Below are positions 24,518 through 35,261 of a stretch of DNA of 64,000 bases, one piece after another (position 1 is the first letter of the stretch; each line of letters starts with the position of its first letter). The stretch is from Serpentinicella alkaliphila (GTDB lineage Bacteria > Bacillota > Clostridia > Peptostreptococcales > Natronincolaceae). The stretch is taken from positions 3,115,001-3,179,000 of the forward strand of contig NZ_CP058648.1 in NCBI RefSeq assembly GCF_018141405.1, written 5' to 3'. The notes beneath the pieces are model-generated. The model made no database searches. It was not told the origin of the DNA and was given only the letters and a program-made list of their open reading frames with translations. The position numbers and the translations under genes were made by a program.

Positions 24518-25186
24518 CTAGTGTGTATCTATATACTGTTGAAGAGTAGCATGCCATTCATCTGGATCGAAAGTATCAATTTTTGTTTCTTCACCAAATA
24601 GAAGATCAACTAAATATCTCGGTTTCTTTCCCCCTATATGCATAGCTTTAATACACGATACACAATATACAACAACTTCTTCACAGGGCATTTCATCTGC
24701 ACGTTTTTTCATCATTTCCTTTACCTGCTGAACTGGTAAAACACCATAAAAACTATCCCCACAGCAAACTGCATTTTGACAAGTATTTCGTGGTTCAACT
24801 ATCTTTATATTCATTTTTTCTAAAAGGTTCCTGATTGCAATATGAACACTATTTCTACCTCTAGTTGGACAGGCATCGTGTATTGTCATTTCAATCCCCT
24901 TATAATTTGGAAACTCAAAGGTTTTACTCTTAGCTAAAATTTCCCATAATGATATTGTAGTGATATCCATATATTCTTCTCTGAATCTCCTATCACAACC
25001 TGAACATGTATTAATGATTTCTGAATCCATTTCAAGTCCATGGTCATGCCTACAACAAATATGATGGTCCCCCATTATATCAACTTCTTTTTTTAAAGCA
25101 TCTAAAACCTTTTTTCCTAATTCTGGCTTGTACAACATAAGAGCACAACCTGGAGCATATACACTACTCAATTTTAATTCCCCCAA
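24518..25186 (-). CDS. Fe-S protein with two CCG domains (HdrB-like)
   Basis: 222 residues. Two cysteine-rich CCG repeats are visible. The first is PGCALMLY, HICCRHDHG and CSGCDRRF. The second is HDACPTRGR, NAVCCGDSFYG and YCVSCIKAM. Such repeats bind noncubane or [4Fe-4S] clusters in heterodisulfide reductase subunit B, GlpC and related oxidoreductases. It is single and soluble, and its start faces an FAD-dependent oxidoreductase gene across 302 bases, so the two could form an electron-transfer pair. Confidence 0.8.
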   Translation of the reverse strand: MGELKLSSVYAPGCALMLYKPELGKKVLDALKKEVDIMGDHHICCRHDHGLEMDSEIINTCSGCDRRFREEYMDITTISLWEILAKSKTFEFPNYKGIEMTIHDACPTRGRNSVHIAIRNLLEKMNIKIVEPRNTCQNAVCCGDSFYGVLPVQQVKEMMKKRADEMPCEEVVVYCVSCIKAMHIGGKKPRYLVDLLFGEETKIDTFDPDEWHATLQQYIDTH

Positions 25187-25488: not shown

Positions 25489-26775
25489 ATGCCAAAAGTT
25501 ACTATAATCGGTGGTGGTTGGGCAGGATGTGCAGCTGCTGTCGGAGCAGTAAAAGCCGGTGCAAAAGTTACAATATTAGAAAGAACTGATATGCTTTTAG
25601 GTACAGGACTAGTTGGTGGAATCATGCGTAATAATGGCCGATTTACTGCTACTGAAGAAATGATTGCAATGGGTGGTGGTGATCTATTTGAAATCTGTGA
25701 TAATACTAGCAGGCATAAAAATATAAATTTCCCAGGACATAACCATGTTAATCTATATGATATAGCTGAGATACATGGAGCAGTTTTTTCTCATTTGCAT
25801 AAACTTGGGGTTGAAATCATTTTTGAAGCTAGAATAGAAAAAGTTACAATGGACGATAAAACCATTCTTTCAGTTCAGGATCAAAAAGAAAGAATATTTA
25901 CCGGAGATGTTTATATAGATACTACCGGTACTGCTGGCCCTATAAATAATTGTAATAAATACGGTAATGGATGTGCTATGTGTGTCTTAAGATGTCCAAG
26001 CTTTGGTGGAAGATTAAGTTTAGGTGCTTTAGTTGGGGTATCCGAAATGGTCGGTATAAAACCTGATGGTAGCATAGGGGCAATGAGCGGGTCATGTAAA
26101 CTTCTTAAGGAATCCCTATCTATAGAAATACAACAGCTATTAACTCGTGAAGGAGTAGCTATTATTGCTATCCCAGAAGAGTTGGCAGAAAATCATTTAG
26201 ATATTAAAGCCTGTCAGCAGTATGCATTACCTGACTTTAAAGATAATATTATTCTACTTGATACTGGACATGCTAAATTGATGGCACCATATTTCAATCT
26301 GGAAAGATTGAGAAAAATTCCTGGATTAGAGAATGCTAGATATGAAGACCCATACACAGGGGGAATAGGAAATTCTATGCGCTTTTTTAATATGTCTCCC
26401 AGAGATAACTATTTGCAAGTTGAAGGCATTAATAACCTTTTCTGTGCTGGTGAAAAAGCAGGACTTCTAGTTGGACACACAGAAGCTATAGTTACAGGAG
26501 TTTTAGCTGGTAATAATAGTGTTAGATTTGCTCTAAATAAACCAATGATACAATTACCTACAGAGCTTGCTATTGGAGATGCCATTGCTTACGTTAAGGA
26601 AGCGATGAATACTCAGGACGGTATGAGTAAGAAATATACTTTCTCTGGGAGTGCGTATTTTGATCGCATGAGAGAACTAGGATTATATATGACTAATGTT
26701 TTAGATATTCACTCTAAGGTAGAATCCTTAGGATTCAAAAATATATTTAATCAAAATATTACCGACAATGCTTAG
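25489..26775 (+). CDS. FAD-dependent oxidoreductase related to the TrmFO/GidA fold
   Basis: 428 residues. The N-terminal GGGWAGCAAAVGAVKAGAKV dinucleotide loop binds FAD, and INNLFCAGEKAGLLVGHTEA is the second FAD motif near the C-terminus. The region resembles the folate-dependent tRNA methyltransferase TrmFO, but an insert with C-x2-C-x3-C (GNGCAMCVLRCPSFGGR) suggests an extra metal or disulfide centre. The substrate is unknown. Strong GAGGAGG before the ATG. Divergent from the HdrB-like gene and followed by its own terminator. Confidence 0.8.
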   Translation: MPKVTIIGGGWAGCAAAVGAVKAGAKVTILERTDMLLGTGLVGGIMRNNGRFTATEEMIAMGGGDLFEICDNTSRHKNINFPGHNHVNLYDIAEIHGAVFSHLHKLGVEIIFEARIEKVTMDDKTILSVQDQKERIFTGDVYIDTTGTAGPINNCNKYGNGCAMCVLRCPSFGGRLSLGALVGVSEMVGIKPDGSIGAMSGSCKLLKESLSIEIQQLLTREGVAIIAIPEELAENHLDIKACQQYALPDFKDNIILLDTGHAKLMAPYFNLERLRKIPGLENARYEDPYTGGIGNSMRFFNMSPRDNYLQVEGINNLFCAGEKAGLLVGHTEAIVTGVLAGNNSVRFALNKPMIQLPTELAIGDAIAYVKEAMNTQDGMSKKYTFSGSAYFDRMRELGLYMTNVLDIHSKVESLGFKNIFNQNITDNA

Positions 26776-29241: not shown

Positions 29242-31062
29242 TTAATTTAATAATATCCTCATAAACTCTTCTCCTGTAATTGTCTCTCTTTCTATTAAAT
29301 ATCTTGATAATTGATGGAGTTTATCCATGTTTTCCTTAAGAATATTTATTGCTTTTTCATGGGCTTTCTTTATAATTCCAAGTACTTCCTCATCAATTTT
29401 TGATGCAGTCTCAGGAGAACAGATTAAAGAAGAATCTCCGCCAAGATACTGATTTGAAACGGTTTCAAGAACCATCATATCAAAGTTTCTACTCATACCT
29501 AGCCTTGTTACCATCATCCGAGCAATTTTTGTAGCCTGTTCAATATCATTCGAAGCCCCAGAAGTATATGTTCCAAATACTAATTCCTCTGCAGCCCGAC
29601 CACCTGTGAAAGTTGTAATTTTATTAAAAGCTTCTTCCTTAGTCATCAGAACATTTTCTTCCTGAGCAACTTGCATAGTATATCCAAGGGCTCCGGATGT
29701 TCGAGGTACTATTGTAATTTTGTGTACCGGTGCTGATTCCATCTGTTTAGCTGCAACAATTGCATGACCAATTTCATGATATGCTATTATTTGTTTCTCC
29801 TTAGGTGAAATAACGGCTCCCTTTCGTTGGTATCCAGCTATAACAACCTCTACGGCTTCCTCTAAATCACTTTGAATAACATAGTTGCGACCACACCTTA
29901 CTGCTCTTAAGGCACCTTCATTAATAATATTTGCTAACTCAGCTCCAGATGCTCCAGAGGTTGCCCTAGCTATCCCATTAAAATCAACATCACTATCGAA
30001 TTTTATTTTTTTTGCATGTACTTTTAAAATAGACTCTCTACCTACTAGGTCAGGTAATTCTACAGGAACACGTCTATCAAATCGTCCCGGCCTTAGCAAA
30101 GCCTTATCCAAAGATTCCGGTCTATTTGTAGCTGCAAGTATTACTACTCCCTTTTCACCACTAAACCCATCCATTTCTGTTAATAACTGATTTAAGGTCT
30201 GCTCCCTTTCATCGTTTCCACCTAACCCACCATTATCACGTTTTTTACCAATTGTATCAATTTCATCTATAAAGATTATACATGGGGCTTTTTCCTGAGC
30301 CTGCTTGAATAGATCCCTAACTCTTGCAGCACCCATACCAACAAACATCTCTACAAATTCAGAACCTGATATAGAAAAGAATGGTACCTTCGCTTCACCT
30401 GCTACAGCCTTCGCTAGTAGAGTTTTTCCTGTGCCAGGAGGCCCTACTAATAAGGCACCCTTTGGCATAATAGCCCCAATCTCTTTAAATTTAGTTGGAT
30501 TATTTAGAAAATCTACAATTTCACTCAAGGCTTCCTTTGCTTCGTTCTGTCCTGCCACATCTGAAAATGTTTTCCCTGTCTGTGCTTCTACGTAAACTTT
30601 TGCATTACTTTTACCAAAGCCCATCACATTGTTAGTGCCCATCATCTTTTGTAGTGGCTTTGTAATCATTTGTACAATGGCAACAAATAATAATATTGGG
30701 AAAATCCAAGTTAAAATAAAATTTACCAAAGGTGAGTTTTGTTTCGGAATTACCTTAGAGAACTGTATATCTGCGTTATAAAGGCGGTTTACTAGATCCG
30801 GATCATCTACTCGCCCTGTCATAAATATCTGTTCCTCTCCTAGTTCATTTTCAATAATGTATGCAATTTGATTATCTTGAATTTCAGCCGTACTTATATT
30901 TCCTTTTTCTATTTCCATTAGGAAAGTACTATAATCCACTTGAGTCACATTCTTTTTAAATATAAATGGGAAAACAAATGCATTTAAAAGCAATACCATT
31001 ATTATTGTTGTAATATAGAAATACACTATAGGTTTTTTTTGATTATTTTTTTCTTTGCTCAT
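29242..31062 (-). CDS. ftsH: ATP-dependent zinc metalloprotease FtsH
   Basis: 606 residues, full length. Two membrane segments (about 13-35 and 112-132) flank an outer domain. The AAA module has Walker A GPPGTGKT (207-214), Walker B IFIDEID (about 263-269) and [20 protein letters not shown] as the second region of homology. The protease domain has HEIGH (429-433). It degrades damaged membrane proteins. Divergent from the NQR operon. A direct-repeat motif shared with the SurA-like gene lies about 85-105 bases upstream, suggesting joint envelope-stress control. Confidence 0.95.
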
Positions 31063-31318: not shown

Positions 31319-32278
31319 ATGTCTTTTCTTAACAGAGTATTTATTAAGCAAATTTTAATGAGAAAGGTAATATATAGCTTAATACCAATTATCATAATTT
31401 CAACCTACTATTTTGGCCTAAGGGCAATTGTTTTAATGTCGGTTACCACAGTATTTGCAATTATTACTGAATTTTTATTTGAAAAAAGATTAAACAAAAA
31501 GGTAAGTGAGGCTGTTATAGTAACTAGCATCTTATTTACGCTAACTTTACCTGTATCTACTCCTTTTTGGGTAGCTATTGTAGGTATTATTTTTGGTGTT
31601 GTTTTTGCTAAAGAGGTTTTTGGTGGTTTTGGAAGAAATATATTTAATCCAGCACTAGTAGGAAGAACTTTTTTATACGTTTGTTTCCCAGAGTATTTAA
31701 CTATTCAATGGAATTCCCCCTCAATTAATTTTCCAGGAGGTTTTTCTACATACCTAACCCCTTCAATTGATACTGTAACAAGGTCTACCCCCTTAATAAC
31801 CTTTGCACAGACAGGCGAATTGGTTCCACTAAAAAACCTTTTTTGGGGTAATATTTCAGGTTCATTAGGTGAAACTAGCGCAATTTTAATAATATTAGCT
31901 GGTATTTATTTAATATATACTAAAGCAGCGGATTGGCGATTAATGGTATCTCCAATTTTAGGTTTTATGAGCCTAAATACAATTATATATTTCTCAAATG
32001 TAACTTCAATTCCTAACCCGATATGGAGCCTTTTATCCGGCAGTATCATATTTATTTCTGTCTTCTTTGCTACCGAACCAATTACTGCTCCTAAAACTAC
32101 TGAAGGTAAATGGATATACGGGACTTTAATTGGTTGTATAACCTTACTAATTAGAATATATGGTATTTTCGTAGCTGGTGGCATGTTCGCAGTTTTAATA
32201 ATGAATACCTTTGCACCTATACTAGATGAGGGTATTAAGTTTTATAAAGGCTCTAGAAGTAGGAAGGTGATAGCATGA
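31319..32278 (+). CDS. nqrB: NQR-type pump subunit B (RnfD/NqrB family)
   Basis: 319 residues from ATG 31319 (GGGGGAG 9 bases upstream). About nine membrane segments. TSILFTLTLPVSTPFW and KEVFGGFGRNIFNPALVGRT follow NqrB closely. The N-terminal extension of classical NqrB (about 412 residues) is missing, giving an RnfD-like length. DTVTRSTPL is the flavinylation motif; the threonine before PL would hold covalent FMN, replacing SGAT of NqrB and SAT of RnfD. First gene of an operon with nqrC, D, E and F. No nqrA is present before it. Confidence 0.88.
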   Translation: MSFLNRVFIKQILMRKVIYSLIPIIIISTYYFGLRAIVLMSVTTVFAIITEFLFEKRLNKKVSEAVIVTSILFTLTLPVSTPFWVAIVGIIFGVVFAKEVFGGFGRNIFNPALVGRTFLYVCFPEYLTIQWNSPSINFPGGFSTYLTPSIDTVTRSTPLITFAQTGELVPLKNLFWGNISGSLGETSAILIILAGIYLIYTKAADWRLMVSPILGFMSLNTIIYFSNVTSIPNPIWSLLSGSIIFISVFFATEPITAPKTTEGKWIYGTLIGCITLLIRIYGIFVAGGMFAVLIMNTFAPILDEGIKFYKGSRSRKVIA

Positions 32279-32889
32279 AAAAATTTAGTCTTAAACCAGT
32301 TGTTTTTATGTTTATCCTGACTTTAGTATTTACTCTTGTTCTTTCAACCCTTAATCATGTTACTAAAGATAAAATCATGTTAAACGAACTAGTAAAGCAG
32401 CAAGCCTCGTTCCTATATGTCTTAAATTTTGATGCTTCAACATTAGACGCAGAAACTATAAATCTGTTATACAATGATCATATAAATGAAATTAAGGTCA
32501 ATGACTTTACACTATATGAAGCATATGAAGATAATAGATTAATCGCATATATACTACCTATTGAAGGAAAAGCAGTATGGGGTGATCTAAGGGCGTTAAT
32601 GGCATTAACCCCTGACTTTTCAGAGGTTATAGGTATAGATATCTTGTCTCATAGTGAAACTCCTGGTCTTGGCGCCAGAATAGATGACATTTCTTTTAAG
32701 GAGCAATTTAGGGGAATTAATCTTAATAGAGAAAATGATTTGAATTTCATTATTTACAACCCAAATCCTAATGGCCAAGTTGATGCAATTTCTGGTGCTA
32801 CAGGAACATCTAATGCCTTAAGAAGAATTCTAAACGAAAACCTTTATAATTTTTTCGAACATATAAAGGAGGGACTAAAAAATGACTAA
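32275..32889 (+). CDS. nqrC: NQR-type pump subunit C (RnfG/NqrC family)
   Basis: 204 residues. One N-terminal membrane anchor (about 9-27), then an FMN_bind domain outside the cell. GQVDAISGATGTSNALRRIL carries the covalent FMN site with T176, and HSETPGLGARI is the flavin-contacting loop. ATGA overlap with nqrB. The length is nearer RnfG than classical NqrC. Flavin attachment requires an ApbE enzyme, which is not encoded in this window. Confidence 0.92.
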   Translation: MKKFSLKPVVFMFILTLVFTLVLSTLNHVTKDKIMLNELVKQQASFLYVLNFDASTLDAETINLLYNDHINEIKVNDFTLYEAYEDNRLIAYILPIEGKAVWGDLRALMALTPDFSEVIGIDILSHSETPGLGARIDDISFKEQFRGINLNRENDLNFIIYNPNPNGQVDAISGATGTSNALRRILNENLYNFFEHIKEGLKND

Positions 32890-33559
32890 GGAAATAGGTA
32901 AAATCTTTTATATTGGTATGTTAAAGGATAATCCAGTATATAGACAGATTTTAGGTATCTGCTCTGCTTTAGCTGTCACTAACCTTATGATAAACTCATT
33001 ATTTATGAGTTTAGGTCTTATATTTGTTGCTTCCTTTTCAAGTCTAACGGTATCAATGATTAGACAGCATATACCTAGGCATATTAGAATGATGGTGCAA
33101 ACTCTAATTATTTCAGCATATGTAATTATAGTTGATATTATCCTTCGAGCATATTTTCCATCCATGAGTATAGCTTTAGGTCCATATGTTGGGTTAATAA
33201 TTACAAACTGTATTATAATGGGCAGATGTGAATCCTTTGCACAGAACAACAAACCTTTGGCATCTTTTTTCGATGGTATGGCCGCAGGTTTAGGTTATAT
33301 GACAGTTCTATTAACTGTAGCCTTCTTTAGGGAGTTTCTTGGATTTGGAACAATTTTTGGAATAGCTGTGGTTGGGGACTGGTGGACTAATTGGATATTT
33401 ATGATAATGCCTCCAGGAGCATTCTTTATGCTTGGTATTTTAATATGGGTTGCTAATTCCTTTATTCCAACTAAGGAGCAAGATAAAGAAATAGAAATTA
33501 AGCCTATAGATATAAATAAAGCTTCACAAGAGACTGTCGTACCAGGAGGTGCCAATTAA
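32882..33559 (+). CDS. nqrD: NQR-type pump subunit D (RnfE/NqrD family)
   Basis: 225 residues with six membrane segments. DNPVYRQILGICSALAVTN and VGLIITNCIIMGRCESFA hold C27 and C110, the ligands of the intramembrane iron centre shared with subunit E. SMIRQHIPRHIRMM and FFMLGILIWVANSF align better with NqrD than with RnfE. A charged tail of about 25 residues extends beyond the usual end. Overlaps nqrC by 8 bases and nqrE by one. Confidence 0.9.
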   Translation: MTKEIGKIFYIGMLKDNPVYRQILGICSALAVTNLMINSLFMSLGLIFVASFSSLTVSMIRQHIPRHIRMMVQTLIISAYVIIVDIILRAYFPSMSIALGPYVGLIITNCIIMGRCESFAQNNKPLASFFDGMAAGLGYMTVLLTVAFFREFLGFGTIFGIAVVGDWWTNWIFMIMPPGAFFMLGILIWVANSFIPTKEQDKEIEIKPIDINKASQETVVPGGAN

Positions 33560-34146
33560 TGAGCGATATTAATCCTTTAGTAATACTTATGGCTTCAATT
33601 TTTACTAACAACATGATATTATCAAATTTTCTAGGTATGTGTTCCTTTATTGCAGTTTCAAATGAAATTAAAACTTCTATTGGACTTGGGCAGGCAGTAA
33701 CTTTTGTACTTGGAGCTACTTCAATTATTAATTACATTATATATAAATATCTACTTGTTCCATACAATCTAGAGTATTTAAGATATATTGTCTTTATAAT
33801 AACAATAGCTGCGTTTGTTCAACTAGTCGAGATGGTCGTTGAGCGATATGCTCCGACATTATATTATTCCCTTGGAATATTTTTACCTCTGATTACAGTT
33901 AATTGTGCAATCCTCGGAGTATCACTATTTATGATAATTAGAAGCTACTCACTTATTCAATCATTTTTCTTTGGTATTGGTTCAGGTTTAGGGTGGACCT
34001 TAGCTATCGTTGCAATGGCAGGTATTAAACAGAAAATTAAAAATTCACCTATTCCTAAGGGATTACAAGGCCCCGGCATTACATTAATCATTACTGGTTT
34101 AATGGCTCTAGCCTTTATTGGTTTTTCTGGAATTGTAAAGATATAG
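33559..34146 (+). CDS. nqrE: NQR-type pump subunit E (RnfA/NqrE family)
   Basis: 195 residues with six membrane segments. FLGMCSFIAVSNEIKTSIGL and LGIFLPLITVNCAILG carry the paired iron-ligand cysteines C28 and C116. The ending LMALAFIGFSGI is typical of NqrE. It has inverted topology relative to subunit D; together they pass electrons across the membrane. Starts at TAATG overlapping the nqrD stop. Confidence 0.92.
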   Translation: MSDINPLVILMASIFTNNMILSNFLGMCSFIAVSNEIKTSIGLGQAVTFVLGATSIINYIIYKYLLVPYNLEYLRYIVFIITIAAFVQLVEMVVERYAPTLYYSLGIFLPLITVNCAILGVSLFMIIRSYSLIQSFFFGIGSGLGWTLAIVAMAGIKQKIKNSPIPKGLQGPGITLIITGLMALAFIGFSGIVKI

Positions 34147-34163
34147 TAGAGGAGTGATATATA

Positions 34164-35261
34164 ATGTCCAGTATATTTGTAACCGTATTTATAATTACTA
34201 CTATTGCTACAGTTCTAGCTTTATTACTTACCCTAGCAAACTACTATATCGCTGACTATGGAGAGCGAAAAATAGTTATTAACAACGATAAAGAACTTTA
34301 TGTAGAGGGCGGTACTACTTTGCTTTCATCCTTAATAAGTAATGAAATATTTATACCTTCTGCCTGTGGTGGCAAAGGAAATTGTGGCTATTGTAAATGT
34401 AAGGTTGAAGAAGGCGGGGGGCCTATTTTAGCGACAGAATTATCCTATTTATCTGAAGATGATAAAAACTGTAATATTCGTCTATCATGCCAAGTTAAGG
34501 TAAAAGAAAATATGAAAATAGAAATACCTGAGGAGTTATTCAACGTTAAGCAATATAATGTAGTTGTTGAGTTTGCACGGGATGTTACACCTACTATTAA
34601 ATATTTAAGATTAGCAATATGTGAAGATAAGGAAATACAATTTAGAGCAGGACAATATATACAGCTACTAGCCCCTCCCTATGCGGACAGTAATGAAGAT
34701 GTTTTTAGAGCCTACTCCATAGCCTCTCAATCAACTACAAATAAATATATTGAATTACTAATAGGTTATGTACCAGACGGAATCGTAACCACTTATGTCC
34801 ACAAACACCTAACCAAAGGTGATAAAGTTACTTTTAATGGTCCCTATGGTGATTTTTATTTATCCGATTCGGACTGCGATATTGTCCTTGTAGCTGTAGG
34901 AACAGGAATGGCACCAATTCGAAGTATTTTGCTTGATATAAAAGATAAGAAAATAAGCCGTAATGTTATCTTTTTCTTTGGTGCTAGGACAGAAGATGAT
35001 TTATTTATGATTGATGAAATGAAAAGACTTGAAGAAGAGCTTCCACAATTCACATTTGTCCCTACATTATCTAGACCTGATAAAAATAGTTGGAATGGCG
35101 AGGTTGGAAGAGTTACTGACATGATTGATAAATACTTAGAATATAAAGAGGGAAGGGAAGCCTATCTTTGTGGAAATGGGCCTATGATTAAATCAACGGT
35201 CAACCACTTAATAGATAAGGGTTTCTCTGAAGACAACATTTATTATGATAGTTTTGATTAA
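34164..35261 (+). CDS. nqrF: NADH-oxidising subunit F of the NQR-type pump
   Basis: 365 residues. An N-terminal membrane anchor (about 7-28) is followed by a plant-type [2Fe-2S] ferredoxin domain with C68, C74, C77 and C109. Then comes a ferredoxin-NADP reductase-like FAD domain (RAYSIAS 182-188, NGPYGDF) and an NAD domain (AVGTGMAPIRSIL, CGNGPMI). This is the electron entry subunit of Na+-NQR, never of Rnf, which uses RnfC and RnfB. Its presence after nqrBCDE identifies the complex as NQR. A hairpin terminator follows. Confidence 0.92.
   Translation: MSSIFVTVFIITTIATVLALLLTLANYYIADYGERKIVINNDKELYVEGGTTLLSSLISNEIFIPSACGGKGNCGYCKCKVEEGGGPILATELSYLSEDDKNCNIRLSCQVKVKENMKIEIPEELFNVKQYNVVVEFARDVTPTIKYLRLAICEDKEIQFRAGQYIQLLAPPYADSNEDVFRAYSIASQSTTNKYIELLIGYVPDGIVTTYVHKHLTKGDKVTFNGPYGDFYLSDSDCDIVLVAVGTGMAPIRSILLDIKDKKISRNVIFFFGARTEDDLFMIDEMKRLEEELPQFTFVPTLSRPDKNSWNGEVGRVTDMIDKYLEYKEGREAYLCGNGPMIKSTVNHLIDKGFSEDNIYYDSFD

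Follow-up and report, generated by a model that had tools for sequence, protein, structure and literature searches.

An nqrBCDEF operon without nqrA in Serpentinicella alkaliphila and where its electrons may go

RNF and NQR hold a central place among the ion pumps of anaerobes and pathogens, and the conversion of one into the other is debated. An operon of Serpentinicella alkaliphila raises the question of what such a pump does with its electrons when the NqrA subunit is missing. The window, meaning the whole 64,000-nucleotide stretch that was analysed, covers positions 3,115,001 to 3,179,000 of the forward strand of NZ_CP058648.1, and the operon lies at window positions 31319-35261. The ORF list gives five intact genes, nqrBCDEF, all on the plus strand and overlapping or adjoining, and HMMs name all five as NQR/RNF subunits. 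This bears out an earlier note on this DNA, which had read genes for subunits B, C, D, E and F here with a divergent ftsH upstream and with nqrA, rnfB and rnfC missing beside them; ORFs and HMMs found none of those three near the operon. The features are collected in Table 1.

Table 1. Features in and around the nqrBCDEF operon, in window positions.
Feature	Position	Strand	Evidence and remarks
ftsH, divergent, upstream of operon	29242-31062	minus	
nqrB-like (RnfD-like) membrane subunit	31319..32278	+	ORF, HMMs, alignment; FMN and riboflavin sites
TRSTPL flavinylation motif in NqrB	31778..31795	+	alignment; codons 156-161 from GTG start
nqrC-like extracytosolic FMN subunit	32275..32889	+	ORF, HMMs, alignment
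nqrD-like membrane subunit	32882..33559	+	ORF, HMM, alignment
nqrE-like membrane subunit	33559..34146	+	ORF, HMM, alignment
nqrF-like NADH-oxidising subunit	34164..35261	+	ORF, HMMs, domains, alignment
hairpin 3' of nqrF, 16-bp stem, 6-nt loop	35271..35308	+	-21.3 kcal/mol, z -6.9

The nqrB gene could start at a GTG (31313) or an ATG (31319), and the ribosome site GGGGAG fits the ATG better. The hairpin after nqrF is strong, as expected from the terminator that had been proposed to close the operon, but its U-tract is weak and a simple terminator scan missed it, so its identity as the operon terminator is likely rather than certain. A simple promoter scan around the operon gave no more matches than in shuffles, and Rfam gave zero family matches there. 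An additional conserved operon gene was looked for in the neighbourhoods of related genomes and rejected: the flanking genes look syntenic rather than part of the operon, being variably spaced and interrupted. Judged by reading their sequences, these flanks are presumably an [FeFe]-hydrogenase-like protein upstream and lysine-biosynthesis genes downstream.

The five subunits keep the residues that an electron-carrying pump would need. NqrB has the TRSTPL motif, with FMN expected on the Thr at residue 159, and an ATP[LM] motif is kept across A-less (lacking nqrA), NQR and RNF rows of the NqrB alignment. NqrC has SGATGTS at residue 173. Cys27 and Cys110 of NqrD, for an intramembrane [2Fe-2S] cluster, are matched by Cys28 and Cys116 of NqrE. 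Domain matches in NqrF show a [2Fe-2S] ferredoxin domain (Fer2), FAD and NAD domains, with a membrane helix at the N-terminus. The note's calls of RSTPL and SGATGTS, of the paired iron cysteines and of the NqrF domains thus hold, and the B and C motifs, the four D and E cysteines and the NqrF cysteines are all conserved among relatives at the level of motifs. The proposed Na+ residues (NqrB-E144 and D397, NqrD-D133, NqrE-E95; PMC7414866) are kept in A-less rows, D397 mostly, and the Asp and Glu equivalent to V. cholerae D133 and E95 are conserved in the window operon. One correction to the note concerns subunits B and C, neither of which scores better as NQR than as RNF: NqrB reaches 231 bits with the rnfD model, above its cut-off, and 207 with the nqrB model, under its cut-off of 350. 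By HMM score, A-less NqrD and NqrE are near the NQR models.

A search of the whole genome (one contig, 99.8% complete), which the earlier note had proposed, found no nqrA; the same holds over the cut-off of TIGR01936 for 117 relatives, and the best match was rnfC at 43 bits. One candidate for a hidden nqrA, a 130-residue frame at C1:1186387 matching PF05896 (E 4e-5), was rejected, since the full TIGR01936 model has no match there. The arrangement is not peculiar to one genome. Orthologous nqrB occurs in about 46 of 118 relatives, nearly always within a BCDEF operon, and nqrA in 0 of the 118. Named relatives with the operon belong to at least seven phyla and include cultured Ilyobacter, Acidaminobacter and Tissierella; nqrA over the cut-off is absent from 45 of the 46 named A-less genomes.

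In trees of NqrB and NqrF the A-less operons form one clade outside six-subunit NQR, and the NqrE tree agrees (support 100/99, 99/98 and 96/88 for B, F and E); the NqrD tree does not resolve the clade. Canonical NQR forms a clade of its own in every tree, and the A-less B, E and F subunits fall outside it. Neither of the two outcomes that the note would have taken as refutation, an nqrA elsewhere in the genome or subunits placed inside ordinary six-subunit NQR, was seen. The note had left open whether such operons group together, and three of the four trees that it called for say that they do. The window subunits in the B, D and E trees fall with the NqrF-bearing lineage, though NqrB passes the rnfD cut-off.

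The note assumed that quinone is reduced in NqrA, which is outdated: the binding site for quinone lies in NqrB, and NqrA is devoid of redox cofactors (PMC12174285, PMC10643135). A missing NqrA alone therefore does not rule out quinone, and the question turns to the quinone site of NqrB, defined by N-terminal helices, G141 and F159 (PMC10643135). Going by the alignment, A-less NqrB is without these three known parts of the pocket, Phe159 in most cases. About 99 residues stand before KEVFGG in A-less NqrB versus 164 in canonical NqrB, in line with the note's remark on the missing long N-terminal extension, and the quinone-site helices AH-I/II are absent. At the position of Gly141, Gly stands in 0 of 136 A-less rows and in 10 of 14 canonical rows; any replacement of G141 is said to block quinone (PMC10643135), but position 141 alone is not diagnostic because the other 4 canonical rows have Leu, Ser or Phe. 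The F159 equivalent is mostly Val. The genome also has no quinone prenyltransferase, its sole UbiA-superfamily protein being decaprenyl-phosphate phosphoribosyltransferase-like.

With slightly better than even confidence, we place the operon's product in the RNF/NQR superfamily as a quinone-independent complex of five subunits that pumps Na+ or H+ and passes electrons to a soluble non-quinone acceptor. NADH would reduce the FAD of NqrF, and electrons would run through the [2Fe-2S] cluster of NqrF and the one between NqrD and NqrE to the FMN on NqrC, then to the FMN and riboflavin in NqrB, and this flow would drive Na+ (or H+) outward, as NQR does. The ancestor of a single clade would have given up both the NqrA/RnfC subunit and the pocket for quinone. 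With both gone, electrons would most likely leave from NqrB riboflavin, at the cytoplasmic face thus vacated, for a soluble acceptor other than quinone that docks there and comes off again, and the recurrence of this version in at least seven phyla also makes a non-quinone recipient most likely. The direction, pumping and acceptor are put forward by homology, and the exit site is likewise an inference. The outline of the note's third type of pump, driven by NADH and with another acceptor, is thus well supported by the pocket, the trees, the missing nqrA and the missing prenyltransferase, while its pumping is argued from homology.

Outside the order of S. alkaliphila, in most non-clostridial members, an undescribed protein of about 150 residues is encoded after nqrF in the same operon. 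It is absent from the window genome and from its order, and therefore cannot be the universal acceptor; elsewhere it would be the foremost candidate for filling or serving the vacated face. It has zero Pfam or NCBIfam matches and no significant PDB sequence match. Its structure model is confident (pLDDT 93.7), and the fold has no PDB match worth naming (Foldseek best E 0.28, VIA-align best Z 2.4), which does not prove a new fold. Tentatively, A-less NQR may be a third functional class in at least seven phyla, coupling NADH oxidation and ion pumping to a novel cytosolic acceptor, with this protein as an ancestral sixth subunit that served as the acceptor, as its dock or in assembly and was lost in clostridia such as S. 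alkaliphila. A widespread quinone-free NQR, if true, would provide many fermenting bacteria of gut, sediment and biogas settings with a further site of energy conservation, would mean that the core of the pump can do without NqrA and without a quinone site, and would point to a new electron acceptor that can be searched for in cultured species.

Rather unlikely, in our judgement, is an exit on the outer face, with the FMN of NqrC (or NqrB) feeding extracytosolic flavin lipoproteins or metals in an ion-coupled electron exporter. The extracytosolic flavin acceptor suggested in the note is only possible: both apbE flavin transferase loci of the genome adjoin a lipoprotein with FMN-binding domains, and lipoproteins bearing flavin are established carriers outside the cytosol (PMC8238504), but none is encoded near nqrBCDEF, and 40-odd neighbourhoods hold no conserved secreted gene beside the operon. 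The metal reducer A. metalliredigens has the operon, but the relevant passages of PMC5924567 report that C. ultunense does not oxidise acetate with Fe(III). The FMN and riboflavin sites of NqrB, which the return path alone would require, are moreover conserved in A-less rows.

The note found no RNF beside the operon; the genome nevertheless has a complete, separate rnfCDGEAB operon (C1:2001105), to which its RnfC belongs. An improbable reading is that RnfC, or an RnfC-like protein, is borrowed from there as the missing subunit of a hybrid NADH-linked enzyme. NqrB resembles RnfD both in its length and by HMM score, rnfC occurs in 41 of the 46 named A-less genomes as well as here, and rare operons join an iron-sulfur RnfC-like gene to nqrBCDEF. 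However, NADH at both ends would bring no gain unless the hybrid's partner differed, and rnfC was not found in five A-less genomes (mostly drafts, so that absence is uncertain), which makes the complex seemingly independent of RNF.

Less probable still is an ordinary Na+-NQR that reduces quinone without NqrA. NqrA has no direct function assigned (PMC12174285), D and E resemble NQR, and imported or unusual quinones may occur, but the missing pocket and prenyltransferase speak against it. Reverse running, in which the ion gradient pushes NADH electrons onto ferredoxin or another carrier of low potential, is very improbable: RNF works either way (PMC12174285) and the exit face might dock ferredoxin, but RNF already does this, and rnfC marks RNF in most A-less genomes.

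The preferred quinone-independent pump shares with Na+-NQR (NqrABCDEF, e.g. Vibrio cholerae) the BCDEF order, the NADH-oxidising NqrF, the flavinylation sites, the D/E cysteines and the proposed Na+ residues, and differs in the missing NqrA, the altered NqrB and the separate clade. With RNF (RnfCDGEAB, e.g. Clostridium tetanomorphum, Acetobacterium woodii) it appears to share a membrane core of four subunits, and NqrB has RnfD-like length and scores above the rnfD cut-off; unlike RNF, it has no RnfB or RnfC, electrons would enter via NqrF, and D and E group with NQR. Firmicutes have been stated to have no nqr operon (PMC4014512). A-less nqrBCDEF was already known from single genomes, reported in 2014 from Pseudothermotoga thermarum/lettingae (PMC4148951) and in 2018 from Clostridium ultunense/Alkaliphilus metalliredigens (PMC5924567). 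In the relevant passages of these papers the gene content and order are the same as here and the acceptor is likewise called unknown; they are single-genome remarks that describe no clade, quinone-pocket analysis or 150-residue partner. The window genome shares with C. ultunense the BCDEF order, the lack of nqrA and the coexisting rnf. The flavinylation systems of NQR/RNF-like type described by Meheust et al. 2021 (PMC8238504) also have an NADH-fed NqrB/RnfD-like membrane part and a proposed one-way electron transfer, but they rely on a single fusion of NqrB-like and NqrF-like parts, paired with an FMN-binding protein, whereas the window operon encodes five separate subunits, D and E included, with the NqrB-like and NqrF-like domains in separate ORFs.

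The operon consists of five intact, codirectional reading frames, overlapping or adjacent, whose products all fall into NQR/RNF families of Pfam and NCBIfam, and V. cholerae NqrF in the PDB matches the window's NqrF across both halves. A 16-bp hairpin lies 3' of nqrF; the flanking genes are a divergent ftsH upstream and a convergent DEAD-box helicase gene downstream. The earlier note had read the operon and its neighbours correctly. It had also suggested searching the genome for nqrA, rnf, apbE and quinone synthesis genes, with an nqrA elsewhere that groups with this operon in related strains counting against a third type of pump. No protein of this genome (3.26 Mb, one contig, 99.8% complete) passed the nqrA cut-off, the top match being rnfC at 43 bits. 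The only further NqrB/RnfD homologue sits in a complete rnfCDGEAB operon, apart from the nqr operon, and two ApbE flavin transferases are encoded. The sole UbiA-superfamily protein resembles decaprenyl-phosphate phosphoribosyltransferase and lies outside any quinone operon, so a quinone prenyltransferase of the MenA, MqnP or UbiA type was not found in this genome, the only one examined for it.

Features of the window, its genome (contig C1) and the retrieved loci (L)
Feature	Location	Strand	Remark
nqrBCDEF operon	window 31319-35261	+	
NqrB-like	window 31313 or 31319-32278	+	
NqrC-like	window 32275-32889	+	
NqrD-like	window 32882-33559	+	
NqrE-like	window 33559-34146	+	
NqrF-like	window 34164-35261	+	
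rnfCDGEAB operon	C1:2001105		complete
FMN-binding lipoprotein beside apbE	L221:887-1627	minus	C1 ~308 kb and 2.36 Mb for L221/L222
FMN-binding lipoprotein beside apbE	L222:3277-3672		as for L221
~150-residue protein	L113:11874-12326		Ilyobacter WP_013388434.1; plus 47 further loci
RnfC-like-headed nqrBCDEF operons	L219, L220 (spirochaete G139); L235 (G394); L252, L253 (G206, G242)		both [4Fe-4S] motifs
CCG-type protein with GidA-like FAD protein	window 24518-25186; 25489-26775	minus (24518-25186)	

Operons of this kind, called A-less here, are widespread. About 46 of 118 genomes from the window's order, Peptostreptococcales, contain an NqrB orthologue (41-64% identity, >259 bits), well apart in score from the RnfD paralogues (at most 168 bits). 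Nearly all fetched neighbourhoods had the order B-C-D-E-F with no nqrA-like gene, and the nqrA cut-off was passed in none of the 118. A scan of named genomes with an NqrB profile placed the A-less operon, among the best 80 loci of the matches listed, in at least seven phyla: Bacillota, Spirochaetota, Cloacimonadota, Thermodesulfobacteriota, Fusobacteriota, Verrucomicrobiota and Planctomycetota. The matches listed also include a partial operon in Aminicenantes, and Ilyobacter polytropus carries its operon on a plasmid. Among the same matches, 45 of 46 named A-less genomes lack nqrA; the exception is a verrucomicrobium with nqrA in a separate canonical operon. Draft or metagenome assemblies account for many of the loci, several rows are one genome under two loci, and one locus (L138, G014:C8) is a same-family contig labelled 'uncultured Alkaliphilus'; where contig ends hide upstream genes, whole-genome nqrA searches stand in. 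In Desulfobacterota and Verrucomicrobiota, nqrD model scores mirror operon content: ~250-326 bits for canonical NQR, ~199-236 for A-less and RnfC-like-headed operons, and up to ~183 for RNF, except at L235, which scores in the canonical band with a divergent A gene.

Two papers had noted nqrBCDEF without NqrA, in T. thermarum and T. lettingae (2014, PMC4148951) and in C. ultunense and P. lettingae (2018, PMC5924567); the 2018 paper also names a putative NQR in A. metalliredigens and proposes that the acceptor has a more negative potential than quinone. Reyes-Prieto et al. state that Firmicutes do not harbour an nqr operon (PMC4014512). The openly searchable literature, to which the search was confined, yielded neither a survey nor a clade analysis of A-less operons, nor any partner protein for them.

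The earlier note took NqrA to be the site of quinone reduction. This premise is outdated: in cryo-EM work (PMC10643135), quinone sits in NqrB, bordered by two N-terminal amphipathic helices together with G141, L138 and F159, and any replacement of G141 is said to block it; NqrA carries no cofactor, and no direct function has been assigned to it (PMC12174285). The NqrB N-terminus and NqrA are intertwined, according to Kishikawa et al. (PMC9325719). The note was right that the N-terminal extension is missing: the stretch preceding KEVFGG has a median length of 99-101 residues in A-less NqrB, compared with 164 for canonical NQR and 112 for RNF. Glycine at the G141 position occurs in 0 of 136 A-less rows (some genomes counted twice), which have Ile, Val, Phe, Thr and others instead, versus 10 of 14 canonical rows, and the F159 position is mostly Val. 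Loss of NqrA thus coincides with loss of the quinone pocket. The electron-path residues are retained (NqrB/NqrC flavinylation motifs, D/E cysteines, NqrF cysteines, FAD and NAD motifs), as are the riboflavin Asp/Glu at D346 and the proposed Na+ residues (PMC7414866).

The NqrB tree has three groups: RNF, A-bearing operons, with canonical NQR at 100/100, and 43 A-less rows (100/99). A separate A-less clade, for which the earlier note had proposed looking, was also recovered for NqrF (99/98) and NqrE (96/88), and NqrD gave no resolved clade. In the tree of the paralogues NqrD and NqrE, where each half roots the other, all NqrF-bearing operons form one clade per half (100/100, 100/99) above a basal RNF grade, and A-less rows fall outside the canonical clade in both halves. 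Five nqrBCDEF operons are headed by an A-position protein with both RnfC-type CxxCxxCxxxC motifs, and two or three of these are the first NqrF-bearing operons to branch off in the D/E tree. The five resemble the intermediate between RnfC and NqrA postulated by Reyes-Prieto et al. (PMC4014512), and are possible living RNF-NQR intermediates. They also suggest that A-less operons lost the A-position subunit rather than primitively lacking it.

At least 48 A-less operons, nearly all outside the window's order, carry a gene of ~150 codons 3' of nqrF, usually after 6-21 bp. Its product matches no Pfam or NCBIfam family and strongly conserves Asp39, Gly87, Pro92, Lys100, His122, Phe129, Gly132 and Arg138 (Ilyobacter numbering). 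The AlphaFold model is confident (mean pLDDT 93.7), and comparison with PDB structures gave no convincing match. Only one of the 118 relatives has the protein, linked to its nqr operon. Its presence on most deep A-less branches of the NqrB tree and absence from the main clostridial group fit an ancestral protein that was later lost.

Most likely, the A-less complex would pass electrons from NADH to FAD and [2Fe-2S] of NqrF, then to the D/E [2Fe-2S], to NqrC FMN and to NqrB FMN and riboflavin, with outward ion transport coupled as in NQR and exit on the NqrB cytoplasmic face to a soluble non-quinone acceptor. Homology and conserved residues argue for the first steps; we infer direction, coupling and acceptor. 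In the main rival reading, extracytosolic flavoproteins would take up the electrons. This genome encodes candidates, unlinked to the nqr operon: each apbE gene adjoins a lipoprotein with FMN-binding domains, one lipoprotein having two flavin motifs. Borrowing of RnfC is possible in this genome and unlikely in general, because rnfC, present in 41 of the 46 named A-less genomes among the matches listed, was not found in the other five.

Other RNF-type arrangements were seen. Anoxynatronum buryatiense (G124, locus L130) has an unusual stock of four rnfC over the cut-off plus an A-less operon. Relatives G012 and G011 (L091, L092) encode an RnfC-like fusion protein, 1012-1027 residues long, that is followed only by an RnfD-like gene, with no other RNF subunits near the pair; this is another reduced RNF-like system. 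In the window, a CCG-type cysteine-rich protein adjoins a GidA-like FAD protein that bears a CxxC cluster. The CCG-type protein matches the NCBIfam model 'diclust_near_Sec' in its C-terminal part alone, and translating TGA as selenocysteine gave no frame extension.
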